A DNA stretch of 64,000 bases from Trinickia fusca (GTDB taxonomy: Bacteria > Pseudomonadota > Gammaproteobacteria > Burkholderiales > Burkholderiaceae): the NCBI RefSeq assembly GCF_003628145.1, contig NZ_RBZV01000002.1, positions 682,001 to 746,000 of the forward strand, in the 5' to 3' direction. The notes under the pieces are model-generated. The model had not been told where the DNA came from and searched no databases. It worked only from the letters and a program-made list of their open reading frames with translations. Shown here one piece after another: positions 26,153 through 50,486 of the stretch. The translations under genes and the position numbers were made by a program. Numbering within the stretch: position 1 is the stretch's first letter; every line of letters starts with the position of its first letter.

Positions 26153-26154
26153 GA

Positions 26155-27168
26155 TCAAAACCCTTCGAGCACGATCTTGCCGCGCGCGCGGTTGCTTTCG
26201 ATCAGTGCATGGGCACGGCGCAGATTGCTCGCGTTGATCGTGCCGAAGTGCTCGGCGAACGTCGTCTTCAACGTGCCCGCATCGACGAGCTCGGCAACCC
26301 TTTGCAGCAGGTGATGCTGAGCGATCTGATCGGGCGTGTCGAACATCGGCCGCGTGAACATGAACTCCCAATGCAGCGACACGCTCTTGCGCTTGAGCAG
26401 GCGCCAGTCGAACAATTCGGGATCGTCGATGAGCGCGAGGCGGCCTTGCGGCTTGATGGCCTCCACGATCTGCAGGAAATGACTGTCGGTCTGGTTCAAG
26501 CCCGCGACGTAATCCACTTGCGCGCAGCCGATCGCTTGAAGCTGTTCGGCAAGCGGCTTCGTATGGTCGATGACGTGATGCGCGCCAAGATCGAGCACCC
26601 ATTGCGTCGTCTCGGGGCGCGACGCCGTGCCGATCACCGTCACGCCGGTCAGCTGGCGAGCCAGTTGCACGAGGATGGAGCCAACGCCACCGGCCGCGCC
26701 GATCACGAGCAGCGCCGCGTCCTGGCGCGCGCCGCCCTGCGCCACCTGCAGGCGGTCGAACAGCAGTTCCCACGCGGTGATGGCCGTCAGCGGCAGCGCG
26801 GCGGCCTGCGCGAAATCGAGCGTAGCCGGCATCCTGCCGACGATGCGCTCATCGACGACGTGCAACTCGCTATTGGTGCCGGGCCGCGTCAAGGCGCCCG
26901 CATACCAGACGCGGTCGCCGGGCTTGAACAGCGTCACGTCGCGCCCGACGGCACGCACGATGCCGGCCGCATCCCAGCCGAGGACGCGCGGCTGCCCCGG
27001 CTCGGGCTTCATGCCGGCCCGGACTTTGACATCGACCGGATTCACCGACACCGCGTGCACTTGCACGAGCAGATCGCGTGGGCCCGGCTGCGGCTCGGGC
27101 AGTTCGATGTCGACGAGGGACTGCGGATCGTCGATCGGAAGGTTCTGATACAAGGCGACGGCTTTCAT
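26155..27168 (-). CDS. Zinc-type alcohol dehydrogenase/quinone oxidoreductase family protein
   Basis: A 337-residue medium-chain dehydrogenase/reductase. The N-terminal GroES-like domain reads LVQVHAVSVNPVDVKVRAG, then PRVLGWDAAGIVRAVGRDVT and FKPGDRVWYAG. The nucleotide-binding domain has the glycine motif VIGAAGGVGSILVQLARQL at about 157-175, so it should use NADPH. The structural-zinc cysteines are absent, as in zinc-free quinone-oxidoreductase-like members. Start ATG 27168 (MKAVALYQ); the frame extends 45 codons upstream but in Arg/Ala-rich shadow sequence. It diverges from a LysR gene, the usual layout for a regulator controlling an oxidoreductase. Substrate unknown. Confidence 0.9.
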   Translation of the reverse strand: MKAVALYQNLPIDDPQSLVDIELPEPQPGPRDLLVQVHAVSVNPVDVKVRAGMKPEPGQPRVLGWDAAGIVRAVGRDVTLFKPGDRVWYAGALTRPGTNSELHVVDERIVGRMPATLDFAQAAALPLTAITAWELLFDRLQVAQGGARQDAALLVIGAAGGVGSILVQLARQLTGVTVIGTASRPETTQWVLDLGAHHVIDHTKPLAEQLQAIGCAQVDYVAGLNQTDSHFLQIVEAIKPQGRLALIDDPELFDWRLLKRKSVSLHWEFMFTRPMFDTPDQIAQHHLLQRVAELVDAGTLKTTFAEHFGTINASNLRRAHALIESNRARGKIVLEGF

Positions 27169-27561: not shown

Positions 27562-28479
27562 ATGATGAATCAGCTCGAACAAATGGCATCGATGGCGATC
27601 TTTGCAAAAATCGTCGAGACGATGAGTTATACGGAGGCCGCGCGCGTAATCGGGGTGTCGAAGTCCGCCGTCAGCAAGGAGCTGGCGCGGCTCGAAGCCA
27701 CACTCGGCGTCACGCTGCTCAAGCGCACCACGCGCAAGATCGAAATCACCGACGTGGGGCGGACGTATTACGAGTACTGTGCGCGCATGCTCGTAGAAAT
27801 GCGCAGTGCCGATGCGTTCATGGAGAAATATCACGCCGACCCGGTCGGCAATCTGCGAGTGGCGGCCCCTGTCACGTTCGGCAATGTCGTGCTGATGCCG
27901 GCATTAAATCAATTCGCCACGAAATACGTGAACGTGCAGGTCGAACTCGATTTAACGGATCGGCAAATCGATCCCGAAAGCCAGAATGTCGATGTCGCGA
28001 TCATGATCAACCGCAGCAAGCCCGAGCATGCGCGCGGCAAGGTCCTGATGGAGATCGACTGGGGGTTGTTCGCCGCGCCGGCCTACCTCGGGCGCCATCC
28101 TTCGATCACCGATCCCGAGCAGCTCTCGCGCCACGGCTTCCTGCTGTTTCGCGGCCCCGCTCACACGAGCGTGGTCGCCATGCAGAAGCACAAGCGCGAA
28201 GTCGAGGTGCGCGCGCGCTGCGTGATGCGCTCGAACAACAGCCGCGCACTGTTGAGCTCGGCGCTCGACGGCCTCGGCGTGGCCTACCTGCCGCGCTATG
28301 TCGCGAACGAGGCCGTCGACGACGGCACGCTCGTACCGATCTTTCCCGACTGGACCTTCGAAAAACGCTTCGCCTTCCTGATGTGGCGCGACGATCCGTT
28401 CGTCGCCCCGCGCGTGCTCTCGTTCATCCAGTTCCTGACCGACCACTTCGCCAACACACACACGCCTAGCGCGGCGTAG
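27562..28479 (+). CDS. LysR-family transcriptional regulator
   Basis: A 305-residue LysR-type regulator. The N-terminal winged helix-turn-helix is clear (MASMAIFAKIVETMSYTEAA, RVIGVSKSAVSKELARLEAT, LLKRTTRKIEITDVGRTYYE), followed by the periplasmic-binding-like effector domain (GNLRVAAPVTFGNVVLMPAL, FLLFRGPAHTS, LLSSALDGLGVAYLPRYVAN). The subgroup with the N-terminal AIFAKIVE usually regulates adjacent oxidoreductase genes. It is divergent from the dehydrogenase/OpuAC pair and convergent with the efflux operon, whose last gene it overlaps by 14 bases. Effector unknown. Confidence 0.95.
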   Translation: MMNQLEQMASMAIFAKIVETMSYTEAARVIGVSKSAVSKELARLEATLGVTLLKRTTRKIEITDVGRTYYEYCARMLVEMRSADAFMEKYHADPVGNLRVAAPVTFGNVVLMPALNQFATKYVNVQVELDLTDRQIDPESQNVDVAIMINRSKPEHARGKVLMEIDWGLFAAPAYLGRHPSITDPEQLSRHGFLLFRGPAHTSVVAMQKHKREVEVRARCVMRSNNSRALLSSALDGLGVAYLPRYVANEAVDDGTLVPIFPDWTFEKRFAFLMWRDDPFVAPRVLSFIQFLTDHFANTHTPSAA

Positions 28480-31241: not shown

Positions 31242-34200
31242 TCACGGTGCGTGCCGCGCGTCTCGCTTGCGCGCAAGACGCCCATGCAAGACCGAGAACA
31301 CGAGCGGCACGAACACGAGCGTCGAGACCGTCGCGAACAGCAGGCCACCGATCACGGCGCGCCCGAGCGGCGCGTTTTGCTCCGCCGCTTCGCCGATGCC
31401 CAACGCCATCGGCAACATGCCGACGATCATGGCCGTAGCCGTCATCAAGACGGGCCGCATACGGGTCGCCCCGGCTTCGAGCGCGGCGGCGAGTGGCGTC
31501 GCCCCCGCGGCCAGGCGCTCGCGCGCGAACGACACCACGAGAATGCTGTTGGCCGTCGCCACCCCGACCGTCATGATGCCGCCGGTCAGCGCGGGCACCG
31601 ACAGGCGCGTCCCGGTCAGGAACAGCATCCATGCGATGCCGGCCAAGGCCGCAGGCAGCGCGCTGATGATGATCAAGGGATCGAGCCACGACTGAAAGTT
31701 CACGACGATCAGCAGATACACGAGCACGACCGCCACGGCGAGCCCGATATAGAGCCCCGAGAACGACGAGCGCATCGTCTCCACCTGGCCACGTACGTCG
31801 ATGTCCGAGCCGCGTGCGAGGGTCGGCCGCGCCGCTGCAACGAGCTTGTCGATCTCGCGCGCGACGCTGCCGAGGTCGCGCCCTTGCACCGAGACGAGCA
31901 CATCGATGGCCGGGCGGATGTTGTAGTGCGACACCTCGGCCGGCAACGCGCGCCGCTCGACGCGCACCAGATTGCCGAGCAACTGCGGGCGGCTCGTCAC
32001 GCCCGGCGCCGTCACGGGGATGCGCATGAGGCTGTCGAGCGAGGCCGCGTCGTACTGCGGCATCTGCACGCTGAGCGGGTATTGCACACCGTTGTGCTCG
32101 TTGAGCCAGAACGCAGGTGCCGTCTGCGAACTGCCGGACAGGGCGACGAGCAGATTCTGCGCGACATTTTGCGCAGTCAAGTCCAGCTGCTGCAAGCGGG
32201 AGCGGTCCATCTGAAACACGAGCGTCGGCTCGTCCACGCGTTGCTGGATATGCGCATCAGCAGCGCCCGGCAGCGAACGAATCGCCTTCATGAGGTGACT
32301 CGCCACGGCAAAGTTCGCGCGCTGATTGGCGCCGACGATCTGCACGTCGATCGCGGCAGGCAGGCCGAAGTTCAGGATCTGCGTCACGATGTCGGCCGGC
32401 TGAAAGAAGAACTCGACGCCCGGAAAGCGCTGCGGCAGCAGCGTGCGCAAGCGCTCGACGTAGCGTTGCGCGGGCGCATGCCCCGACGCGAGCGCGATCA
32501 TCAGCTCGCCGTCGAACGTGCCGATCGTGCCGGCATTGCTGTACGACAAATTGATGCCGCTATAGGGCAGCCCCAGGTTGTCGAGGATCGGACCACGCTC
32601 GCCCACGGGGACGACTTCGCGCACGACGCCCTCGACCTGATCGGCCAGGCGCGCGGTTTCCTCGATGCGTAGCCCCGTCGGCCCGCGCATGTGCAAGCGG
32701 ATCGCACCCGAGTCGACCGATGGGAAAAAATCGGTGCCGACGACGAACAGCAGCGTCGTGGACAGCAGACACCCGCCCAGAAACGCGCCACCAAAGCGGC
32801 CCGGCCGCTCGAGCGCCATCGTCAGCAGCACGACGTAATTGGCATGCAGTCGGTCGAACACACGCTGAAAGCGCCGATGCACGCGTGCGAACAGCGAGGT
32901 CCCCGCTTGCGCGTCCTCGAGATGCATGGGCGGATGTTGCGTGAGCAGCAGCGCGAGCGTCGGCACGAGCGTGCGCGACAGCCAATACGACGCGAGCATC
33001 GCGAACACGACGGCCTCGGCAAGCGGCACGAACAGGTAGCGCGCCACACCCGTGAGGAAGAACATCGGCACGAAGACGATGCAGATCGACAGCGTCGAAA
33101 CGAATGCGGGCACGGCGATCTCGCCGGCGCCGTCGAGAATCGCATCGCGCAGGCTGCTGCCCCTATGCAAGTGGCGCTCGATGTTCTCGATCGTGACGGT
33201 CGCATCGTCGACGAGAATGCCCACCGCGAGTGCGAGCCCGCCCAGCGTCATGATGTTGATGCTCTCGCCGAGCGCCGACAGCGCGATCAGCGAAGCCAGA
33301 ATCGACAGCGGAATCGAGATCGCGATGATCAGCGTGCTGCGCCAGTTGCCCAGAAACAGCAGCACCATCGCGGCCGTCAGCGCCGCGGCGATCACGGCTT
33401 CGCGCGCCACGCCCTGCACCGCCGCCTTCACGAACACCGATTGATCGAACAGCGAAACGATCTTCAGATCGGGCGGCAGCGATTGCGCGACATGCGGCAC
33501 GAGCGCGTGAATCGCCTCGACGATCGAGAGTGTCGACGCTTCGCCGCTCTTCATCACCGACATCAGCACGCCGCGCCGCCCGTCCTGCCGCACGACGTTG
33601 GTCTGTGGCGAAAAGCCATCGCGCACGTGCGCGACTTCCCCCAGGTAGGTCGTCGCGCCGTCGACGGTGCGCACGGGAATGCGGTTCAAGCCGTCGATCG
33701 TGTCGGGCGAGGCGTTCGTCATGACCGAATATTCGGTCGCCCCGATCTTCGCGGTGCCGCTCGGCAGGATCAGGTTCTGCGCGTTGACCGCGTTGATGAC
33801 GTCGCTCGGCGTGAGGTCCTTGGCCAGCAGTGCGCGCGTGTCGAGGTCGACCGAGATCACGCGCGGCTTGCCGCCGTACGCGAACGGCACGACGGTGCCT
33901 GGAATCGTCACGAGCTGCGGGCGCAGGAAATTGGTGGCCGCATCGTTGAGCGCCTGCTCCGACATCACGGGGCTCGAGATGCCCAGTTGCAGCACCGGAA
34001 TGCTCGAAGCCGAGTACGTGAGGATCAGCGGCGGTGTCGCGCCGGGCGGCATGAAGCGCAGTTGCGCCTCCTCTGCCGACACGGCCTGCGCCATCGCCGT
34101 GCGCACGTCGGTATGCGGCTGCAAGAACAGCTTGATGATCGCGATGCCGGCCAGCGACTGCGACTCGCTATGCTGGATGTTGCTGACGAGCACGGTCAGA

Positions 34201-34409
34201 TTGCGCTCGTTCACGGTCGTGATGCGGTTGGCCATCTCGTCGGCCGACAGACCGTTGTACGTCCAGATCACGCTGATGACGGGGATGTCGATGTCGGGCA
34301 GCACATCGACCGGCGTGCGCACGAGCGTGAGCGGTGTCGCGAGCACGATCGCGAGCGCCATGACGATGAACGTGTACGGCCGCGCGAGGGCGAGCCTGAC
34401 GATCCACAT
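31242..34409 (-). CDS. RND efflux inner-membrane pump (AcrB/HAE1-type)
   Basis: A 1055-residue AcrB-family proton-driven exporter. The first helix and porter start are visible (MWIVRLALARPYTFIVMALA, LTLVRTPVDVLPDIDIPVIS), then two large periplasmic loops. The transmembrane core around helix 4 reads LGGLALAVGILVDDATVTIE, containing the paired aspartates of the proton relay; helices 10-12 carry GGIMTVGVATANSILVVSFA and RMRPVLMTATAMIVGMLPMA. Full length with no breaks. Substrate class cannot be assigned by eye; the sequence looks nearer to the multidrug than to the metal-ion branch. Confidence 0.95.
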   Translation of the reverse strand: MWIVRLALARPYTFIVMALAIVLATPLTLVRTPVDVLPDIDIPVISVIWTYNGLSADEMANRITTVNERNLTVLVSNIQHSESQSLAGIAIIKLFLQPHTDVRTAMAQAVSAEEAQLRFMPPGATPPLILTYSASSIPVLQLGISSPVMSEQALNDAATNFLRPQLVTIPGTVVPFAYGGKPRVISVDLDTRALLAKDLTPSDVINAVNAQNLILPSGTAKIGATEYSVMTNASPDTIDGLNRIPVRTVDGATTYLGEVAHVRDGFSPQTNVVRQDGRRGVLMSVMKSGEASTLSIVEAIHALVPHVAQSLPPDLKIVSLFDQSVFVKAAVQGVAREAVIAAALTAAMVLLFLGNWRSTLIIAISIPLSILASLIALSALGESINIMTLGGLALAVGILVDDATVTIENIERHLHRGSSLRDAILDGAGEIAVPAFVSTLSICIVFVPMFFLTGVARYLFVPLAEAVVFAMLASYWLSRTLVPTLALLLTQHPPMHLEDAQAGTSLFARVHRRFQRVFDRLHANYVVLLTMALERPGRFGGAFLGGCLLSTTLLFVVGTDFFPSVDSGAIRLHMRGPTGLRIEETARLADQVEGVVREVVPVGERGPILDNLGLPYSGINLSYSNAGTIGTFDGELMIALASGHAPAQRYVERLRTLLPQRFPGVEFFFQPADIVTQILNFGLPAAIDVQIVGANQRANFAVASHLMKAIRSLPGAADAHIQQRVDEPTLVFQMDRSRLQQLDLTAQNVAQNLLVALSGSSQTAPAFWLNEHNGVQYPLSVQMPQYDAASLDSLMRIPVTAPGVTSRPQLLGNLVRVERRALPAEVSHYNIRPAIDVLVSVQGRDLGSVAREIDKLVAAARPTLARGSDIDVRGQVETMRSSFSGLYIGLAVAVVLVYLLIVVNFQSWLDPLIIISALPAALAGIAWMLFLTGTRLSVPALTGGIMTVGVATANSILVVSFARERLAAGATPLAAALEAGATRMRPVLMTATAMIVGMLPMALGIGEAAEQNAPLGRAVIGGLLFATVSTLVFVPLVFSVLHGRLARKRDARHAP

Positions 34410-41779: not shown

Positions 41780-42109
41780 TCAGTCGACGATGAACAGCTT
41801 CGCGCCGGTCGCCGTGCGCGAGCGATGCGGCTCGGCATTGTCGGCAACCTGATAGCTCTGGCCGGCCTTCAGCGTGAAGCAGCGACCATCGTCGAGTTCG
41901 GTGTCGAGCTCGCCCTCGAGCACGTAGAGGATGTGTCCTTTCGAGCACCAGTGGTCGGCCAGGTAGCCCGGCGTGTACTCGACCTCACGCACGCGAATGT
42001 CGCCGAACTGACGCGTGCGCCAGTACGCCATGCCCGTCTCGCCCTTGTGCTCCGTGCGCTCGACGCCCGACCAGTCGGTCACGCCGAACGGAATTTCGCT
42101 CATCTTCAT
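41780..42109 (-). CDS. Small cupin protein (DHCW-motif type), RiPP cluster
   Basis: A 109-residue single-domain cupin. The barrel is plain: GDIRVREVEYTPGYLADHWC, then KGHILYVLEGELDTELDDGR, FTLKAGQSYQVADNAEPHRS. Candidate metal ligands are the His of DHWC, the His of KGHIL, the Glu in LEGEL and the late His of EPHRS. The ATG overlaps the LanB stop by four bases (ATGA), so it is made together with the LanB-like protein. Cupins of this size act as metalloenzymes, isomerases or sensors. Last gene of the run, its role could be a late tailoring or thiol-handling step; this is inference from context only. Confidence 0.88.
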   Translation of the reverse strand: MKMSEIPFGVTDWSGVERTEHKGETGMAYWRTRQFGDIRVREVEYTPGYLADHWCSKGHILYVLEGELDTELDDGRCFTLKAGQSYQVADNAEPHRSRTATGAKLFIVD

Positions 42110-44607
42110 AGCAATGCTTCTTCGTGTTGTTGGGGGAAATGCGCAGGTGCGCCCTCCGCGCCGGTGCTGCCGACGATCGAGGTGCGGAACTCTGCGCAGA
42201 ACGCGCCGCGCTCGTCGGCGAGCCACACTTGGTGCGGTGCCGGCAGCATCTCCGAGACGCCGAGCGTTTGCGCACGCGCCGCGACCGAGGTTAGCGCATC
42301 GAGCGATAGCGGGCAGTCGAAGTCGACGAATACGGGCTTGGGCTCGGTGTCGGCCTTGACGAAAATATGGCGCGGCAGGCCCTGCGCGCTGGCCCAGCGT
42401 CGCCACGCGAGGAACGCCGGCATGCTTTCGCCGACGCGTTCGGCAACCGGCAGCTCGCTCGCTTGCAGCGTCCAGGTGCGGCGCTTGAGAATCGTGCGGC
42501 CCAGGCGGATGCGCTCGGCAATGCCCGCGCCGAGCACGTCGGCGGCCAGCGCGAACGCAGCGCGATGAAAGTCGCCCGGCAGCACCGTCAGCAGGTGCTC
42601 GGTGAGACCGCTCGCGCGGTCTTCGACGAACAGCGTGCCGCTGCGTTCGATCAGCGTCAGCCGCGCAGCCGGCACCCGCCGCTCGCCGGACACGCGCGCG
42701 CTGGCGCCGGGCATCTCGACTTGCCACAGCTCGGGCACATCGAGCCAGTCGATGTGCGAACGCTGGTACGTACTGTCGGAATCGGCCGCGACCATGCGCG
42801 AATTGCCGAGCGTGTCCCGCACTTCGTCACGCACGCTGTCCTGGTAAGGACAGAACGGCTGCGCCACGGGCTGCGATACCGTATGCACGGTCGGATGCAC
42901 TTCGCCGATCACGAGGTCGAACTGGCCCGCTCGGATCGCCTCGACGTTGGCAGCCGCGATCAGGAAATCGGGGGAATGCACGCGTGTGCCGAGCGGCAGC
43001 GGGTCGTGCGCTTGCAAGCCCGCCTGCTCGAACGCCGACACGAGCCGCTCGAGGTCGCCCGCATCGAGCGCGATCTCGCCGTCGACGGCAGGCTTGTCGG
43101 CCACGACGCTGCTCCACGCTGCGCGCAGCAGCGGACGCAGTGCGGCGACCGTCTCCTCGGCCACGCGATGACGCTGCAATTCGCGTGCGAACGACAGCAA
43201 GTCGTGCCGCACCGCCACATCACCGTTCGTGCGGATGCGCACGTAGGCAGCCGAGACCTGCGTGGCGATGGCGCCGGCCAGGCGATCGTAGAGCGCCATC
43301 AACGGCACGAGCTCGGTGTCGATCGCGCGCCTCACCTCACCCGCGATGCGTACACGCACATTGCGCGCGCAGTCTTCATAGAACGGGAAGCGGCCGACGT
43401 ACATCTTGCCTTGTTCACGGCTCACGTCGATGCCGTTCTCGGCCAGCAGCGTCTCGCAATCGGCGAGCGCCGCACGTCGCTCGTCGAGTGTGCCGGTCGC
43501 GAAGCGCAGACGCTCGCGCTCCAGCGCCTCGAACAGTTCGCGCCAAAAGCGCGTGCGCGGATGGCCCGCGTCGAGATGCGCAAGATAGGCACGCAAGGCG
43601 CCGAGCGGATCGCCGAGGCCGGCCGCGACGCGCACGCCGCGCGCCGCGATGCCCTTGGCGAGCACGCTGTCGATGGCGGCATCGACGTTCTGCTCGCTCA
43701 AACCTCGCGCGATGCAGCGCTCACGCAGCAGCGCACGTTTGATGCCATGAGCGCGTTCAGCTTCGAGTTCGTCGAGGACGGCAAGGAGCGCGCCGTCGAC
43801 GGCGATGCGCCGATTGCCGGGGGCGTGCAACGCGCCTTCGATCAGTGCGCAGGCGGGCGACAACGAGATCGGCAGCGTATCGCCGAGCACCGGGTCTTCC
43901 GACATGGCCGTCGCGACGCGCGAGATGACCCAATGCTCGAAGTACGTGCGCCGCTCGCCGATCCAACCGCCTTCGCCGAACGTCACCTCGAACGACGAGG
44001 CCTTTCCGTCGGCCCCATCGGCCGGCGCGAACTCGCCCCAGGCGATCGGTCCGAAGAAGCTCGTCGTGTCGTTCTTCGCGCACAGCCGCTGCACATAGCT
44101 CCACGCCAATCGCAAACGCTGCCGCATGCGGTTGTCGACGCGCTCGGGCGAGCACTCGGCCAACGTCTCGACGCGTTCGAGCGCGCTCGGATTGGACAGG
44201 AACACGGCCTCGCGCAGCAGCGGGTCGCGCAGCGTCTCGAACAGCGCGCCGCGCGCCTGGGTCGCAGCCGTACCGAAGCTCGCCTCGAGCGCCACGCCGA
44301 GCTGTACGAGCTCGGCGCGTTCGGCATAGAGTGGCTCGAGCTCGGCAGCCGCCAGTGCCGTTTGATCGGCGGGCCAGTCCTTGGCCGTCAACGGCATGCC
44401 CTCGGTCAGCTTGCGCACGACCTTCAGCGCCACGGGCGAGCCGGCCTTCAGCAGGCCCTCGCGAATACGCTCGATGCGCGCCTCGATCGATTCGGTCAGC
44501 GCGTGAAAGCGCGCGACCTCTTGCTCATCGAGCCGCACGGCGAAACGCTCGAGCCAGCTGATCGGAAAGCCTGCCGAGCGCATCCAGAAGAACGACGAAA
44601 GCGACAT
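42106..44607 (-). CDS. LanB-like protein lacking the elimination domain, candidate peptide aminoacyl-tRNA ligase
   Basis: An 833-residue lantibiotic-dehydratase N-domain (LanB glutamylation domain) protein. Diagnostic parts are FFWMRSAGFPISWLERF at the start, DNRMRQRLRLAWSYVQRLCA and KNDTTSFFGPIAWGEF at about 178-193, and near the C-terminus LPRHIFVKADTEPKPVFVDF. There is no SpaB_C elimination domain, and no separate gene for one is in the window. Stand-alone proteins of this shape include PEARLs, which use aminoacyl-tRNA to add an amino acid to the C-terminus of a scaffold peptide (TglB adds Cys). Start ATG 44607 is two bases past the previous gene's stop. Amino acid added: unknown, Cys suspected from the neighbouring iron oxidase. 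Confidence 0.85.
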   Translation of the reverse strand: MSLSSFFWMRSAGFPISWLERFAVRLDEQEVARFHALTESIEARIERIREGLLKAGSPVALKVVRKLTEGMPLTAKDWPADQTALAAAELEPLYAERAELVQLGVALEASFGTAATQARGALFETLRDPLLREAVFLSNPSALERVETLAECSPERVDNRMRQRLRLAWSYVQRLCAKNDTTSFFGPIAWGEFAPADGADGKASSFEVTFGEGGWIGERRTYFEHWVISRVATAMSEDPVLGDTLPISLSPACALIEGALHAPGNRRIAVDGALLAVLDELEAERAHGIKRALLRERCIARGLSEQNVDAAIDSVLAKGIAARGVRVAAGLGDPLGALRAYLAHLDAGHPRTRFWRELFEALERERLRFATGTLDERRAALADCETLLAENGIDVSREQGKMYVGRFPFYEDCARNVRVRIAGEVRRAIDTELVPLMALYDRLAGAIATQVSAAYVRIRTNGDVAVRHDLLSFARELQRHRVAEETVAALRPLLRAAWSSVVADKPAVDGEIALDAGDLERLVSAFEQAGLQAHDPLPLGTRVHSPDFLIAAANVEAIRAGQFDLVIGEVHPTVHTVSQPVAQPFCPYQDSVRDEVRDTLGNSRMVAADSDSTYQRSHIDWLDVPELWQVEMPGASARVSGERRVPAARLTLIERSGTLFVEDRASGLTEHLLTVLPGDFHRAAFALAADVLGAGIAERIRLGRTILKRRTWTLQASELPVAERVGESMPAFLAWRRWASAQGLPRHIFVKADTEPKPVFVDFDCPLSLDALTSVAARAQTLGVSEMLPAPHQVWLADERGAFCAEFRTSIVGSTGAEGAPAHFPQQHEEALL

Positions 44608-44609
44608 GG

Positions 44610-45482
44610 TTATCCCCGCGAGACGTCGATGGCGCGACACTGACGCAGCAGCTCGAACGCGCGCGCGTCAGCTTCTGTAACCGGTGCCATGCCGCGCGCG
44701 ACGAGTCGCTCGTTCAGCGCGGCACGATCTGCCTCATGTTCGAGCGCGTCGACAATCTGAGCCGCACGCTCGGGCAGCATGCCGAAGCGATGGGTGCGCA
44801 CGTCGTCGGCGTAGTACGCGACATACACGCCAGGCACCGCCGGCAACGGCTCACGTCCGAGCGTGCCCTTCTCACGCAGCCATTTCGCGAGTTGCGTCGA
44901 CGAGCGGTACAGCTCGCAATACGGCGAACGCACCCACACGACGCTCGCATCATCGAACTGCGCGGCCGATGCGGCTGTGCTGCCCAAGGCTTGCGCTCGC
45001 GTCGCTTCGTCGAGCGCGCCCACGCGCAGCAGCATCGCGACGGCTGCCGCTTCGAGTCCCATCAAATCGCTCATGCCGGCCACGCGCACCGCTTGAGCAT
45101 CGTGCCGCAGGAAGGTCAGCGCCTCGGCACAGTACGTGTAGACGAACGGACCGTAGTCGCGCCAGCCCACCGTGTCCAGGAAGCGCGCGCCGAGCTCGCG
45201 CACGTCGTGACCATCGGCCAGCAACGCACGCAGCGTCAACGGCGCGCCGTTCTCGAGCGCATTGAGGAACGAGTTGCGCATACGGAAGCGATAGTTCTCG
45301 ACGAACCAGCGCGCGCCCGACGATTCGTGTGCGTATTCGCGTGCGACCGCGTATTCGTCGTCGGTCAGCGAAAAGCGCTGTTGCAGATCGTCGACCCGGC
45401 CCGCGAGCACGGCCTCGGCGAGCGGCTGCTCGCACATGATGCGGCGCCAGGTGAGCCAGACCGTTTGTGCGTTCATGTTCAT
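44610..45482 (-). CDS. Probable MNIO partner protein of the RiPP cluster
   Basis: A 290-residue cytoplasmic protein without a recognisable catalytic motif. It is mostly helical at the N-terminus (WLTWRRIMCEQPLAEAVLAG, YAVAREYAHESSGARWFVEN) and contains DVRELGARFLDTVGWRDYGP and PGVYVAYYADDVRTHRFGML. Its ATG overlaps the stop of the iron oxidase gene (ATGA), and MNIO enzymes nearly always need a partner protein encoded next to them (MbnC, TglI and ApyI are examples) to bind the precursor. Role therefore assigned from position; whether it contains a peptide-recognition (RRE-like) winged helix needs structure prediction. The three tight junctions on either side imply a stoichiometric complex. Confidence 0.7.
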   Translation of the reverse strand: MNMNAQTVWLTWRRIMCEQPLAEAVLAGRVDDLQQRFSLTDDEYAVAREYAHESSGARWFVENYRFRMRNSFLNALENGAPLTLRALLADGHDVRELGARFLDTVGWRDYGPFVYTYCAEALTFLRHDAQAVRVAGMSDLMGLEAAAVAMLLRVGALDEATRAQALGSTAASAAQFDDASVVWVRSPYCELYRSSTQLAKWLREKGTLGREPLPAVPGVYVAYYADDVRTHRFGMLPERAAQIVDALEHEADRAALNERLVARGMAPVTEADARAFELLRQCRAIDVSRG

Positions 45483-46411
45483 GCTTGCTCCGCGATCGTC
45501 GACATGTCGTGCTGCGCGCCCTTATGGCGATTCCAGATCTCGCGCGCACGGGTGAGGTCGCCCGCGATCATTTCGTGATCGGCCTGCGCCGTCGATTGAC
45601 CCAGCACGCGTGTGCCGTCGTGATGCGCCTGACCTTGGAATTCGAGGATCACGGCGGCCGGCTCGGCGCGCGAAAGCACGTCTTCGAGCAGGTCCCATAC
45701 GGGCTCCGGCACCTTGCTGTCGTGCCAGTCGTGATAGCTGCCGCCATACCAGCTGCCGCCCGCGAGGTGGATCGCGATCACGCGATCGAGCGGAATCGTG
45801 TCGAGGTAGTCGGCACACGAGAACCCGGCGAGGTTCACCGAGTTCGTATAAATGTTGTGCAGGTCGAGGTGCAGGAACGTGCCTGAGCGCTCGACGAGCC
45901 GCGCCATGAATTCGGCCTCGCGCATTTGCGCGCCGGGCGTCGGCATGTAGTAGGCCGCGTTCTCGTGCGCGAGCGGCATGCCGTAGGCTTCCTGTACGGC
46001 CGCGGCGCGCGCGGCGCAGCGCTCGATCTCGGCGGTCGAGAACTGGACCGGGCTGCTCCAGATGTCGAGCCACGAGTTGTCGCCGTAGAAGCAGTGGTTG
46101 GCGACCCACGGGCTTTCGAGCGCTTGGGCGAGCGGCACATGGCGTCGCAACGCGGCCGTCTCCTCGAGCGGCGCAAAGCCGAAGTCGCAGCCGTAGTTCG
46201 AATGCGCGAGCAGCCGGCCGCGCCCGCGAATCTTCTCGAGTTGCTCGCGTGCGGCGGGACGCATCAGATACGGACCGTCGAGCGGACCCATCAGGTTGTC
46301 GAGCAGCACTTCGAACACGTCGACTTCCATATCCTCGAAAGGAAACCAGTCGAGAATCTCTGGGTTGTATTGCAGCCCGACGCCGATGGCGGACGGCTTC
46401 GCAAATGTCAT
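45479..46411 (-). CDS. DUF692 multinuclear non-haem iron oxidase (MNIO)
   Basis: A 310-residue TIM-barrel enzyme of the DUF692/MNIO family (relatives MbnB, TglH, ApyH), which use a two- or three-iron centre and O2 to remodel Cys or other residues of peptides. It opens with IGVGLQYNPEILDWF. Candidate iron ligands in order: His70 (AHSNYG), His106 (ANHCFYG), Glu150 (AHENAAYY), Asp183 and His185 (LDLHNIY), His215 (AIHLAGG), His227 and His230 (HDWHDSKVPEPVW), Glu257 (ILEFQG). The overall pattern is the family's, but several signature words differ from the common form (NHCFYG rather than EHLSW; LEFQG rather than LERD), suggesting a divergent subgroup. Start ATG 46411; a longer frame would enter the hairpin. 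Confidence 0.9.
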   Translation of the reverse strand: MTFAKPSAIGVGLQYNPEILDWFPFEDMEVDVFEVLLDNLMGPLDGPYLMRPAAREQLEKIRGRGRLLAHSNYGCDFGFAPLEETAALRRHVPLAQALESPWVANHCFYGDNSWLDIWSSPVQFSTAEIERCAARAAAVQEAYGMPLAHENAAYYMPTPGAQMREAEFMARLVERSGTFLHLDLHNIYTNSVNLAGFSCADYLDTIPLDRVIAIHLAGGSWYGGSYHDWHDSKVPEPVWDLLEDVLSRAEPAAVILEFQGQAHHDGTRVLGQSTAQADHEMIAGDLTRAREIWNRHKGAQHDMSTIAEQA

Positions 46412-46429
46412 GATTGCTCCGGAAAAGGA

Positions 46430-46489
46430 ACGCCCCCGACCTGGTGGGTCTTGCGCAACGCAGTTACCCACGCGTTGGCACAGGGGCGT
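46430..46489 (-). other. Three-tier stem-loop between scaffold peptide and MNIO genes
   Basis: Nested complementary arms: ACGCCCC (46430-46436) with GGGGCGT (46483-46489), GTGGGT (46444-46449) with ACCCAC (46466-46471), TGCG (46452-46455) with CGCA (46459-46462). It lies immediately downstream of the scaffold-peptide stop in the transcript and 18 bases before the MNIO start. No U-run. A partial terminator or RNA-stability element that keeps peptide above enzyme levels would fit. Confidence 0.6.
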
Positions 46490-46498
46490 GCGTTTGCA

Positions 46499-46672
46499 TC
46501 ACGCGAAGACCTTGCTTTCGATGACCTCGATGTCGTCGAGCGAAAAGTCTTCGAAGTCCTGCAGCGCGTCGGCCGGCTTGCCTTCGCACGTGCCTGCGTT
46601 CTGCGGTGCGGCGTTCGCTTGCACGTCGGCTGCGAGCTGGCTCTGCTCTTGGGAAACGGTCGTGTCGTTCAT
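46499..46672 (-). CDS. Scaffold/precursor peptide of the RiPP cluster (57 residues)
   Basis: A short acidic peptide. Residues 1-28 are polar (Gln/Ala/Asn-rich), the only cysteine is Cys29 (GTCEGKP), and the C-terminal part FEDFSLDDIEVIESKVFA is Asp/Glu/Ile-rich, like leader regions recognised by LanB proteins and other RiPP enzymes. No repeats, Ser/Thr-rich core or protease site of a normal lanthipeptide follows; the peptide simply ends in KVFA. That fits a reusable scaffold extended at its C-terminus better than a cleaved precursor. A GGAGG ribosome-binding site lies six bases before ATG 46672; a start five codons earlier lacks one. It sits 18 bases after the protease gene and before the MNIO gene. 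Confidence 0.85.
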   Translation of the reverse strand: MNDTTVSQEQSQLAADVQANAAPQNAGTCEGKPADALQDFEDFSLDDIEVIESKVFA

Positions 46673-46690
46673 GAGATCCTCCGTCAACAG

Positions 46691-47830
46691 TCAGTGGGGT
46701 TGAAAAGCAGAAACCGCGATGCGTGCGACGTTGGCCCACACGATGAGCCAACCGCCGAGTGTGCCGATGACCATGGCCGTGTAAGTCAGCGTCTCGCGCC
46801 GCGTGAGCGACACGGGGCGTCCGCGCACGAACGCCATGAAGGCCGAGAACGCGCGCTGCCGAAGCCGTGGCATGTTCAGGAGTTCCGTCATCGCTAGATA
46901 GCCGTCGCCGTTGAAGATCGGCAGCAGTGTCGGAATCAGCGCGAGCGACGGACTGGCAATCGCGACCGTCGCCGCGTAGCGCGCCGCGCTACCCGGTGCG
47001 GCCCATTCCCAGATGAAGACAGCTACCGCGGCGAACACGAGGCTCGCAAACGGGCCTGCGAAAATCGTCACGGCCCGCGCCGTCTTGTCGAGGCGGCTCC
47101 ATTCACGTTGCACGGGCCACGCCCAACCCGTCGCGATGACGACATACACCGCCACCCCGATCTCCGTCACGCGTACGCGATAGGCCCGGCACGCCAACGC
47201 GTGGCCGAACTCGTGCACGACGATCGACGCGATCACGACCCCGTAGTGAATCGGAATCCACGCGAAGCCCGTCGAATAGACCGTGACCAGATCGTGCGCG
47301 AACGCGTGCCCGTTCAACCCGAGCAGCACGCAGGCGGCCATGACGAGCACACCGAACGCGCCGAACGCCGTGCGCGTCGCGAGCCACGGCATGCGCGCCA
47401 TCATCGCGTCGAGCAGCTCGTGCGGATCGAAGCGAAACAGCGTGATCATCAGCACGCGCTTGAACGGACCGTAGGTGATGCCGGCCGATTGCGAGCGCGG
47501 CTTGGCCACGCGCGCAGCCGACGGCTGCAACGGATCGGTCAGGATGCCTAGCTTGAGCATGCGCTCTTCGAATTGCTTGACGGTCGCCGCCGACGCGCGC
47601 ACCGCGTGCTCCTCGCGCAGCCGCTCGACGATCTGGTCGATCGAGCAAATTCCGTCGAACATGCGCGCGACGAGCAGCTCGCGCTTGCCGAGCACGAACG
47701 ACTCTTCCGAGTCGCGATCGCGTAGCACGAAGCGCTCGGGCTGACCGGGCTCCGCGAGGGTCTCGATGTCGAGATCCTCGCGCAAGCGGGTGTAGCCGCC
47801 CACGATTCGCTGAGCGAGATCCTGGTTCAA
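46691..47830 (-). CDS. PqqD-like domain fused to M50 membrane metalloprotease
   Basis: A 379-residue protein. Residues about 12-100 look like a PqqD-type winged-helix peptide-binding domain (YTRLREDLDIETLAEPGQPE, GKRELLVARMFDGICSIDQI). The rest is a polytopic site-2-protease-like (M50) domain: zinc motif VVHEFGHALACRAY with His206, Glu207 and His210, and third ligand Asp309 in FNGDGYLAM. It would release the finished product from the peptide scaffold at the membrane, as proposed for TglG. The start is TTG 47830, which overlaps the methyltransferase stop (TTGA); the frame is open 110 codons upstream but only as shadow sequence. Confidence 0.85.
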   Translation of the reverse strand: MNQDLAQRIVGGYTRLREDLDIETLAEPGQPERFVLRDRDSEESFVLGKRELLVARMFDGICSIDQIVERLREEHAVRASAATVKQFEERMLKLGILTDPLQPSAARVAKPRSQSAGITYGPFKRVLMITLFRFDPHELLDAMMARMPWLATRTAFGAFGVLVMAACVLLGLNGHAFAHDLVTVYSTGFAWIPIHYGVVIASIVVHEFGHALACRAYRVRVTEIGVAVYVVIATGWAWPVQREWSRLDKTARAVTIFAGPFASLVFAAVAVFIWEWAAPGSAARYAATVAIASPSLALIPTLLPIFNGDGYLAMTELLNMPRLRQRAFSAFMAFVRGRPVSLTRRETLTYTAMVIGTLGGWLIVWANVARIAVSAFQPH

Positions 47831-48780
47831 CTGCGCGCTCCCGGCAGCATGGCGACGGCTGCCCGCACCTTCGTCCGTTCCTCGGCCGCCCCTTCGCGTG
47901 CCGCTAGCGCGAACGCGTCCGCGCTCATCGGCTCGCCCGCCCGGCCCAGCACGTAGACACCGCCAGGCCGCGTCGGCCCCGTCAGCGGCTCGTCGGTCGA
48001 GAGGATCGGCTCCCAGCCGTGCTTGCGCATCAAAAGACCGATGTTGCGCAACGTGAGATAACGCCGATGCGTATGGCTGAACGTGCCGAGCGCCACGCCG
48101 CCGCGCAGCGCGCGCCCTTCGATGAACAGCAGCCCGCCTTCGCGCGTCGCGCGCCGGCACAGCTCGAGCGTGCGATTCACGTCATGCACGTGCTCGAGCG
48201 AGCCCGTGATCACGACGAGATCGAAGTGCGCCTCGGGCAACACCATATCCTCGGCGCCGACCGTCTCGATCGTGAGCTTCAGATGACGGGCGCCGTATTC
48301 GGCATAACCTGCGTCGGGATCGGTGCCGAGCACTTCCCAGCCGCGCTTGGCGAACGGCACCATGAGGCCGCCCGCCGAGCAGCCGACGTCGAGCAAGCGC
48401 CCGGTGGCCGGCAGGTAGGGCTCGAGCGACTGGAGCAGCCGCTCGCCGCGCCGCAGCTGATCGACCATGAACGCGCGCTCGGGCTCGGTTGCGCCGAACA
48501 GGTTCACGCGGTAGTGCTTGCGGTAATACGCGTCATAGAACTCGGGCTCGAAGCGCGGGTTCTGCATGACGAAGCCACACGTCTCGCACATGACGACCGG
48601 CAACTTCCAGCGCCGACCCTGCCCGATCTCGACCTCCTCGACCAGCGTGGCGAAGTGCGTGTGACCGCACACGTCGCACGGCTGCTCGGCGCATGCGTAA
48701 TCGTCCTCGACGCCAACCGCACGCAGATAGTCGCGCACCGAGTCGAGCTGCGCTTCGCTCGTTTCACTCACTTGATGCAT
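47827..48780 (-). CDS. Methyltransferase with N-terminal zinc ribbon, RiPP cluster
   Basis: A 317-residue class I SAM enzyme. An N-terminal zinc-ribbon pairs Cys35/Cys38 (CDVCGHTHF) with Cys65/Cys68 (CETCGFVMQNP). The methyltransferase domain follows: motif I LLDVGCSAGGLMVPFAKRGW at about 129-148, then LVVITGSLEHVHDVNRTLEL (motif IV area) and REGGLLFIEGRA. Zinc-ribbon plus Rossmann enzymes of this kind act as C- or S-alkyl transferases on natural products. Being next to a CmoA-like protein, it may transfer a carboxymethyl rather than a methyl group, as proposed for the tgl pathway. It overlaps the CmoA-like gene by 13 bases. Confidence 0.85.
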   Translation of the reverse strand: MHQVSETSEAQLDSVRDYLRAVGVEDDYACAEQPCDVCGHTHFATLVEEVEIGQGRRWKLPVVMCETCGFVMQNPRFEPEFYDAYYRKHYRVNLFGATEPERAFMVDQLRRGERLLQSLEPYLPATGRLLDVGCSAGGLMVPFAKRGWEVLGTDPDAGYAEYGARHLKLTIETVGAEDMVLPEAHFDLVVITGSLEHVHDVNRTLELCRRATREGGLLFIEGRALRGGVALGTFSHTHRRYLTLRNIGLLMRKHGWEPILSTDEPLTGPTRPGGVYVLGRAGEPMSADAFALAAREGAAEERTKVRAAVAMLPGARS

Positions 48781-49505
48781 AGGAAACCTTCGAAGCAGAT
48801 GTGCTTGAAGACGGTCACGACGTCGGAAAAGCCCGCGCGCTTGAGCATGTCGACATTGCCGGCCGTCGAGAACGGCTCGAGCACGCCCTTCAGGCTGCGC
48901 GTCTTTTGCATGATCTGCTCGCAGTCGTAGCCCTGCTTGAGCTTGTACTCGTTGTACAGCGCCACCGAGATGTCCTGAAAGCGCGCATCGGGCGCACGCA
49001 CCTTCTCGAACATCAGGAAGGCGCCGCCCCAGTTCAGGCTCTCGTAGACCTTGTCGATGAGCGCCTGACGCAGCCGCGGCCGCACGAACTGCACCGTGTA
49101 GTACGCGACCATCAGGTCGCTCTTCTCATACGGATGCAGGTTGATGTCGTCGACGAGAAAGTTCACGTTCGCCATCGGGTCCGCTTCGTTCGCGGCCGTC
49201 TTGCGGGCCTGCGCGATCATGTCGGGCTCGACGTCGATGCCGATCCATTTGGCCGTGGGTCCGTGGCGCCGCGCGAGCTTGCGGGTGAGCGCGCCCGTGG
49301 AGCAACCGAGTTCGTAGCAGACCGAATGCGCGCTCACGAAGAAATCGCTGATTTCCGCAACGAGCTCATGACCTTCCGCATAGCGCGGCACCGATTTCGA
49401 CACGTGGTCGTCGAAGTGCTTGGCCGTTTCGCCGGCGAACGTCCATGCGGCGTTGCCCGTGACGATCGAGTCGCCGACGGAGGCGACTTTCAGGTTGGTG
49501 TCCAT
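48768..49505 (-). CDS. CmoA-like protein, candidate carboxy-SAM synthase
   Basis: A 245-residue SAM-fold protein resembling E. coli CmoA along its whole length: WTFAGETAKHFDDHVSKSVP and RYAEGHELVAEI, YELGCSTGALTRKL, WIGIDVEPDMIAQARKTA, VAYYTVQFVRPRLRQALIDK, VYESLNWGGAFLMFEKVRAP and the end FKHICFEGFLCIK. CmoA makes carboxy-S-adenosylmethionine from SAM and prephenate. Where CmoA has a Gln-Lys-Arg that includes its carboxylate-binding arginine, this protein reads QKTRS, so the exact residue match needs alignment. The genome should hold a separate cmoA for tRNA wobble-uridine modification. Start ATG 49505 has AAAGG five bases upstream; GTG 49511 is less likely. Confidence 0.8.
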   Translation of the reverse strand: MDTNLKVASVGDSIVTGNAAWTFAGETAKHFDDHVSKSVPRYAEGHELVAEISDFFVSAHSVCYELGCSTGALTRKLARRHGPTAKWIGIDVEPDMIAQARKTAANEADPMANVNFLVDDINLHPYEKSDLMVAYYTVQFVRPRLRQALIDKVYESLNWGGAFLMFEKVRAPDARFQDISVALYNEYKLKQGYDCEQIMQKTRSLKGVLEPFSTAGNVDMLKRAGFSDVVTVFKHICFEGFLCIK

Positions 49506-49622
49506 ACTCACCTTTGTCGTTGCTGCTTGATTTCGGGGGCGACACGTCCCTTGCCGGCGCTCTCGCGGAAAGAGCGCGGCACGGACGGCCTTGAGGAACT
49601 GCGGGGGCTGACTGGCCCGGCG

Positions 49623-50486
49623 CTACGGATGCGGTTGAAAGATGTCGCGCTGACCGCTGCGGCGGCGCTTGCCGCCGAACCACACATCGCCCCAATGCTT
49701 CACGCTGATCGGCAGGAGCGGCAGCAGATGGAGCCCGGCGAGCGAGTAGTCGGGATGCTCGTCGAGCCCGTTCGTAAAGCCGGGCGGACGGCGCGTGACG
49801 GCGCAGCGCGTGCCGGTGAAGTAATCCCAGACGCTGAGGATGGCGCCGTAGTTCGAATCGGTGAAATTCTGCGTGCGGCCGTGATGGATGTTGTGATAAA
49901 GCGGCGTCACGAGCACCTTGCCGAGCCACTGCTCGAGCCGGTCCGGCAGGCGGATGTTGCTGTGGTGGAAGATGCCATAGCAGAACACGAACGCTTCGTA
50001 GGCCCCGACGGTCTCGGGCGGCACCGCCAGCAGGAACAGCACGGGCAGCTTCGTGGCGAGCGCGAAGAACTTCTCGGCGAAGTGATTGCGGATGCCCGTC
50101 GTCACGTCGAGATGCTCGTCGATGTGATGGATGGCATGGAAGCGCCACAACAGCGGAATGCGGTGCGCCAGCATGTGCTGCAAGAAATGCGTGAGGTCGA
50201 GGATCATGAAATCGATGACGACCGCGAGCACGCCGTGATACCAGTCCGGCCGATGCAAGCGATACGGGACATCGCGCACGATATAGAGCACGAGCGGCGC
50301 AATGACCATCGGCGAGAATATGATCTTATAGGTTATGCCGAGGCCAAAATTATTGACCAATCGACTGCGCTTATTACCCTCGAAAATAATTCGCGGAAAG
50401 ATTCGCTCGAGGATAAAGAAGGCCGCAAAGACTCCAACCGAGACGATCAATGACATGCTGATCGTCGGAGGTAGCAACGATTTCAA
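49623..50486 (-). CDS. Sterol desaturase/fatty-acid hydroxylase family membrane diiron protein
   Basis: A 287-residue membrane oxidase with about four hydrophobic segments and the three histidine boxes of the family: HFLQH (100-104) plus HMLAH, HAIHH (117-121), and HNIHH (198-202). These bind a non-haem diiron centre that hydroxylates or desaturates using O2. The TTG start at 50486 has a very strong AAGGAGG ribosome-binding site five bases upstream; no ATG has one. It is the first gene after the divergent promoter region and 117 bases upstream of the CmoA-like gene, so it probably leads the RiPP operon. Its substrate could be lipid or the peptide-derived product. Confidence 0.88.
   Translation of the reverse strand: MKSLLPPTISMSLIVSVGVFAAFFILERIFPRIIFEGNKRSRLVNNFGLGITYKIIFSPMVIAPLVLYIVRDVPYRLHRPDWYHGVLAVVIDFMILDLTHFLQHMLAHRIPLLWRFHAIHHIDEHLDVTTGIRNHFAEKFFALATKLPVLFLLAVPPETVGAYEAFVFCYGIFHHSNIRLPDRLEQWLGKVLVTPLYHNIHHGRTQNFTDSNYGAILSVWDYFTGTRCAVTRRPPGFTNGLDEHPDYSLAGLHLLPLLPISVKHWGDVWFGGKRRRSGQRDIFQPHP

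Follow-up and report, generated by a model that had tools for sequence, protein, structure and literature searches.

The tgl cluster of Pseudomonas syringae and other pseudomonads, which is listed in PMC10880893 as tglA, tglB, tglH, tglI, tglF, tglE and tglG, directs the synthesis of the glutamate analogue 3-thiaglutamate on a reusable carrier peptide. As outlined in PMC9016710, TglB adds a cysteine, TglHI excises its beta-carbon, TglE and TglF carry out a carboxymethylation and TglG releases the product. Here we compared this system with a cluster in Trinickia fusca, which lies in a window of 64,000 nucleotides (nt) corresponding to positions 682001-746000 of contig NZ_RBZV01000002.1 within a 6.1-Mb genome. 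Nine intact open reading frames (ORFs) run on the minus strand of the window from position 50486 down to 41780, and they include all seven of the listed tgl genes (7/7). We consider it highly likely that these seven genes, like their Pseudomonas counterparts, make 3-thiaglutamate on TglA, each catalytic step being assigned by orthology; this reading brings the pathway into the genus Trinickia of the Burkholderiaceae. An earlier note on this DNA had proposed a pearlin-type cluster distinct from 3-thiaglutamate. The pearlin assignment is supported by the counterparts of TglA, the PEARL, TglHI and TglG. The distinction found no support for the core, since the seven genes, including the TglE/TglF pair, stand in the order of ten Pseudomonas loci; a distinct core was rejected after the gene-by-gene comparison, which yielded tgl counterparts.

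A scan of 84,980 species with two exact TglH peptide patterns gave 16 loci, which is a lower bound. Counterparts were assigned by one-way phmmer searches from the window, and a gene was scored as absent when no match at E 1e-3 was found within 10 kb of tglH; two of the loci (L007, from Sorangium, and L019) end at contig ends. The full seven-gene core was found in 13 of the 16 loci, namely in two Trinickia, one Sorangium metagenome-assembled genome (MAG) and ten Pseudomonas, and only H, I and E were seen in the remaining three (L018-L020). The run of genes is not a chance array, since the complete core set turns up jointly in these 13 loci. The order E-F-G-A-H-I-B of Trinickia fusca is kept in 12 of the 13; in Sorangium, E follows B. 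All ten Pseudomonas loci share this order on the same strand, and their TglH proteins are 65-69% identical to that of Trinickia fusca. In the TglH tree, the three Trinickia proteins form one group (100/99) beside Pseudomonas (95/91). The tglF gene of P. cerasi (L008 7637-8611) is broken by an in-frame stop into two ORFs in one frame and was counted from both; tglF is a single ORF in the other nine Pseudomonas loci.

The list and order of the nine genes given in the earlier note were confirmed by the ORFs and family matches, apart from a PqqD label. Its description of overlapping or near-touching ends holds for most junctions, with overlaps of 13 nt (E/F) and 4 nt (F/G, H/I and B/cupin, the last as ATGA) and gaps of 18 nt (G to A) and 2 nt (I to B); it does not fit the gaps of 117 nt between the hydroxylase gene and E and of 87 nt between A and H. 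The promoter scan returned two promoter-like sites (1.3 expected), none of them on the operon strand, and the terminator scan returned four terminator-like sites against 6.5 expected, none usable. Among the three tgl-bearing Trinickia, the ratio of nonsynonymous to synonymous substitution rates (dN/dS) was at most 0.44 for all nine genes.

The MNIO gene product (45479..46411), the TglH counterpart, aligned to the TglH chain of PDB entry 8hci (8hci_D) with an E value of 5e-149 and 69% identity and also matched 8hi7 and 8hi8; we take the TglH of these three structures to be the P. syringae protein. Its match to the MbnB_TglH_ChrH family scored 149 bits (cut-off 25). The iron ligands of TglH given in PMC10880893 are H71, H107, E151, D184, N187, H216, D229, H231 and E258, together with the active-site residue N73. 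In a pairwise alignment, all nine ligands and the Asn73 position were kept in the Trinickia protein, with numbering one lower. The partner protein (44610..45482) matched the TglI chain of the same structure (8hci_C; E 1.8e-35). The pair would remove the beta-carbon of the cysteine to leave a C-terminal 2-mercaptoglycine.

The predicted substrate is a 57-residue carrier peptide (46499..46672) with a single Cys. Its last 12 residues, DDIEVIESKVFA, are identical to those of TglA from P. cerasi; among the ten Pseudomonas loci this tail is identical in three (P. cerasi, L010 and L017) and differs by one residue in seven. All 13 related carriers have the motif ESKVFA, and the Trinickia tail ends in VFA. 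The 12 C-terminal residues of TglA are reported to suffice for the action of TglB (PMC11962472), and TglHI is reported to require residues 33-51 of TglA-Cys (PMC10880893).

The TglB counterpart (42106..44607) is probably a PEARL that adds Cys. Its sole Pfam domain was the N-terminal glutamylation-type domain (Lant_dehydr_N, PF04738), in agreement with the earlier description of a LanB protein without an elimination domain. The TglB positions reported as mutagenized in PMC11962472 are Arg10, Glu542 (as printed there), Glu801 and Arg803; position 542 is, however, Asp in P. cerasi by our own count. These positions correspond to R10, D547, E806 and R808 of the Trinickia protein and were invariant in all 14 aligned sequences. 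The residues Y171 and R174 of an SYVQR segment fit the Tyr205/Arg208 pair of BhaB, by spacing only. The grouping with canonical Ser/Thr dehydratases that the earlier note named as a refutation did not emerge from these features, the PEARL residues being kept and the elimination domain absent; no LanB-wide tree was made.

The three remaining core genes lie upstream of the carrier gene. The TglE counterpart (48768..49505), a predicted carboxy-S-adenosylmethionine (carboxy-SAM) synthase of the CmoA family, is 59-66% identical to the TglE proteins of eleven loci (L007-L017, Sorangium and ten Pseudomonas), and TglE is described as making carboxy-SAM in PMC10491745. No other protein in the genome scores above 26 bits with the CmoA model, and the TglE counterpart is therefore probably the sole source of carboxy-SAM there; CmoB was not part of this search. 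The TglF counterpart (47827..48780) would use carboxy-SAM to carboxymethylate the thiol. It matched Methyltransf_23 with 59.8 bits (cut-off 27) and is 46-52% identical to three sequences, those of L007 and L009 and the product of the second of the two P. cerasi tglF ORFs (L008). The zinc-ribbon methyltransferase of the earlier note is thus borne out in its methyltransferase fold and in its N-terminal CxxC pairs (CxxC...CxxC, zinc-ribbon-like); the zinc ribbon itself had no Pfam match. The carboxy-SAM residues of CmoB are given as K91, Y200 and R315 (PMC10491745). No CmoB was found among the 13 PDB matches of TglF at E 0.001, and its score with the CmoB model was 21.8 bits (cut-off 275). The TglG counterpart (46691..47830) is a predicted membrane M50 protease with HEFGH and NGDG motifs, which would free 3-thiaglutamate and regenerate TglA. 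It is 34-43% identical to the proteins of L007-L009 (34-38% in the two Pseudomonas among them), matched Peptidase_M50 with 35.9 bits (cut-off 27.2) and scored 92 bits with the daptide protease model NF041824 (cut-off 300). The M50 part of the former PqqD/M50 label was confirmed, and its PqqD part had no Pfam match.

Several results weigh against the assignment of the core. The TglE counterpart scored 149.2 bits with the CmoA model TIGR00740, below the cut-off of 193.3, and its residue aligned with CmoA Arg199, presumably a carboxylate-binding residue, is Thr, with an Arg adjoining. The TglI counterpart reached 162.3 bits with NF058584 (cut-off 450) and the carrier 35.2 bits with the TglA model NF038377 (cut-off 45). 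The identity of TglB is no more than 35-36% with the proteins of the two Pseudomonas compared and 35-38% with those of L007-L009 (Sorangium and two Pseudomonas), and PEARL specificity is stated in PMC9303977 not to be predictable from sequence. In addition, the Trinickia operon contains no major facilitator superfamily (MFS) gene, whereas an MFS gene or a close homologue lies beside tgl in all ten Pseudomonas loci. Two MFS genes were recognized by Pfam in P. cerasi; by tblastn their homologues lie 3' of tgl in eight and 5' of it in three of the ten loci, P. cerasi having both. An AcrB-type pump gene is located at 31242-34409 of the Trinickia window. As for the model scores, P. cerasi and P. 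protegens exceed the cut-offs (491.9 and 541 bits for TglI, 88.1 and 94.9 bits for TglA), and Sorangium and T. diaoshuihuensis fall below both, as Trinickia fusca does, which suggests that the TglA and TglI models were drawn on Pseudomonas. None of the results against the core assignment names another product.

The Trinickia cluster lies in a block of 26.4 kb. By blastn, window positions 27490-53854 matched contigs of the two other tgl-bearing species, T. dabaoshanensis and T. diaoshuihuensis, as one block with 83-89% DNA identity (L044, L045 and L093-L098); the block of T. dabaoshanensis carries approximately 2.4 kb extra after window position 28454. Besides tgl and the AcrB-type pump, it contains genes for a solute-binding protein, a chromate transporter, a citrate synthase, a CobS/CobT-like pair of AAA and vWA proteins and an AMP ligase, the last assigned by motif alone. 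The block occupies the mutL site in Trinickia fusca and is not beside mutL in the other two species. The window sequences that flank it (at 25.4 and 53.9 kb) are separated in T. diaoshuihuensis by approximately 50 bases, and in T. dabaoshanensis by no more than 1 kb of sequence (window 26154-27168).

The tree of the MutL protein, a single gene, placed the window with three tgl-less species (100/99), apart from the other two tgl carriers, which grouped together (99/97). For mutL and the gene at 53.9 kb, nonsynonymous divergence (dN) was 0.11-0.17 between the window and the other carriers and 0.03-0.045 between those carriers; four of the nine flank comparisons gave no value. Within the block, dN was about equal in the two comparisons (0.036-0.038 and 0.034 for the hydroxylase; 0.054-0.055 and 0.063 for tglB). 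Because the mutL tree and the flank dN values separate the carriers while the block dN values are equal, the block, together with its hydroxylase and cupin genes, was most likely transferred from one Trinickia clade to another. These comparisons suggest that tgl is passed between species as one unit.

The first gene of the run (49623..50486), with a TTG start behind GAAGGAGG, encodes a membrane diiron protein of the fatty acid hydroxylase/sterol desaturase family (PF04116, 80.9 bits; cut-off 31), whose ten histidines were invariant in all 15 aligned proteins. The last gene (41780..42109) encodes a DHCW cupin (NF038084, 183 bits; cut-off 70), and the overlap of its start with the tglB stop is kept in all three tgl-bearing Trinickia (including L005 and L006). 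The earlier note had set the two apart from tgl, and this was upheld by the ten Pseudomonas loci, none of which carries either. We read them as accessory genes carried along with the cluster. For the hydroxylase we tentatively favour an oxidation at the membrane, which would act on a lipid or, with lower probability, on the product.

As for what these two genes do, an even chance may be given to the hydroxylase being a co-inherited lipid-modifying enzyme with no role in the structure of the amino acid, and to the cupin being a passenger. The substrates of FA_hydroxylase family members are usually lipids or other hydrophobic compounds, and the only NCBIfam match of the protein was the lipid hydroxylase OlsE (70.6 bits, far below the cut-off of 475). 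The cupin also occurs apart from tgl. It was found in 7 of 11 Trinickia genomes, four of them tgl-less species in which it lies near mutL, and in 42 of 150 family genomes (E 0.001; 36 at full length), of which three are known tgl carriers and 12 were searched for TglI. No tgl-core gene was located within 9-15 kb of the cupin in 16 sampled family genomes. A conserved neighbourhood for the DHCW cupin was also considered and set aside, since no neighbouring family was common to more than 5 of these 16. In another Burkholderiaceae genome (G145; L064 7152-11998), relatives of the CobT/AAA pair that flanks tgl here are found near a DHCW cupin.

The passenger view is weakened by the two-clade block, in which both genes stay with tgl, and by purifying selection, under which both are found; the dN/dS values of the hydroxylase (0.065-0.09) are like those of the tgl genes. 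In the cupin tree, the three cupins of the block group together (89/89), as do the four from the mutL site (94/91), the two groups being separate and the deeper forks weak. Insertion of the tgl block beside a resident cupin was ruled out by this separation and by the two other tgl-bearing Trinickia, which carry the block with its cupin elsewhere; the cupin now belongs to the block. Among the 16 scanned loci, the cupin was found in three, from two Trinickia and Sorangium. A DHCW cupin gene adjoins tglE in the Sorangium MAG (L007 7702-8097), and a plasmid of Burkholderia stagnalis carries another next to a TglH/CmoA-like cluster (L052 14873-15202). We judged this recurrence beside tgl-type genes to be beyond chance, without a formal test, and it hints at a link that would speak against a passenger.

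Alternatively, the diiron hydroxylase may oxidize 3-thiaglutamate on the carrier or after its release, so that the end product would be new. We regard this as rather unlikely, and it is about as doubtful in its more specific form, in which TglA-bound or just-released 3-thiaglutamate would be hydroxylated or S-oxidized at the membrane and the cupin would handle the product or a reactive by-product. The distribution of the gene argues for such a role. TglI was found in 3 of 11 Trinickia genomes and a close hydroxylase in the same three (the window's own, or 91-93% identical to it); the other eight contain only relatives of 24-35% identity, so that hydroxylase orthologues occur only with tgl in this genus (3/3 tgl-bearing, 0/8 others). 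Among 369 genomes of the class, 105 had a hydroxylase match at E 1e-30 or below, the window's own included; apart from the latter, the matches listed were 29-40% identical (35% for the best by score), and the 15 plasmid matches listed were 29-35% identical. Its position as the first gene of the run, its purifying selection and its apparent movement with tgl between clades point the same way. On the other side stand the usual substrates of the family, the sole match to OlsE, the 117-nt gap before tglE and the gene's occurrence in only two of the 16 scanned loci, both from Trinickia, with no counterpart in the ten Pseudomonas loci and none in that of Sorangium, which is truncated at its 5' side by a contig end. 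We know of no membrane diiron enzyme in any pearlin pathway, although no search aimed at one was made. The co-travelling hydroxylase is a concrete and testable candidate for a new tailoring step.

The tmo cluster of Tistrella mobilis, which makes 3-thiahomoleucine, is described as also having a carrier ending in VFA, a PEARL, an MNIO with its partner, a methyltransferase and a metalloprotease (PMC9303977). The Trinickia carrier scored about equally with the TmoA model NF050126 (36.9 bits; cut-off 70) and the TglA model. A product of this type, or another pearlin made by methyl rather than carboxymethyl transfer, is nevertheless very improbable: in place of the TmoS and the B12 radical SAM protein TmoD of tmo (PMC9303977), Trinickia has TglE and TglF, no TmoD is present among the nine genes and these are arranged as in tgl. 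A class I lanthipeptide-like bacteriocin cluster, to which the Lant_dehydr_N match might point, has a negligible probability given that the nine genes include no elimination domain, cyclase or ABC exporter and that the peptide contains just one Cys and ends in the tail conserved among pearlin carriers.

The search also revealed a type of cluster in which no PEARL was seen (L018 9692-15874; L020 from 9635; L019; and L052 8701-15202 on the B. stagnalis plasmid NZ_CP156687.1). Its MNIO and CmoA-like proteins are 54-55% and 53-58% identical to those of Trinickia, and it has a TglI-like domain; Pfam searches of L018 and L052 identified methyltransferase and radical SAM proteins. Three of the four loci encode a short Ala-rich peptide with Cys mostly at every seventh residue (CAATAAKCAANAARC...), and L019 is cut at this point. 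These features suggest TglHI-type chemistry on ribosomally encoded internal Cys residues, and this cluster type may be more novel than the tgl cluster of Trinickia. Plasmid-borne tgl was rejected as a candidate: the TglH search gave 308 records, of which the best (53.6%) was the B. stagnalis cluster and the other 14 listed were approximately 32% identical or less, and the TglI search gave one record.

In the open-access literature searched, we found no paper pairing "pearlin" with Trinickia, and a broader search of it that gave 167 papers showed no such pairing among the 20 listed. For the term DHCW, nine of the ten papers listed (of 89) appear to use an unrelated acronym, and the tenth concerns Bordetella pertussis. 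If the core assignment is correct, carboxy-SAM in Trinickia fusca probably serves the 3-thiaglutamate pathway and not tRNA, because the CmoA model has no second match of more than 26 bits. 3-Thiaglutamate was found in a plant pathogen, from which the Trinickia hosts are different, and its function can thus be compared across hosts. The Sorangium locus shares with Trinickia the F-G-A-H-I-B core, a CmoA-like gene and an adjoining DHCW cupin; it differs in that E follows B and in that no hydroxylase was seen, the contig ending just 5' of F. Compared with the Pseudomonas clusters, which have the same seven genes in the same order, the Trinickia cluster has the hydroxylase and the cupin in addition.

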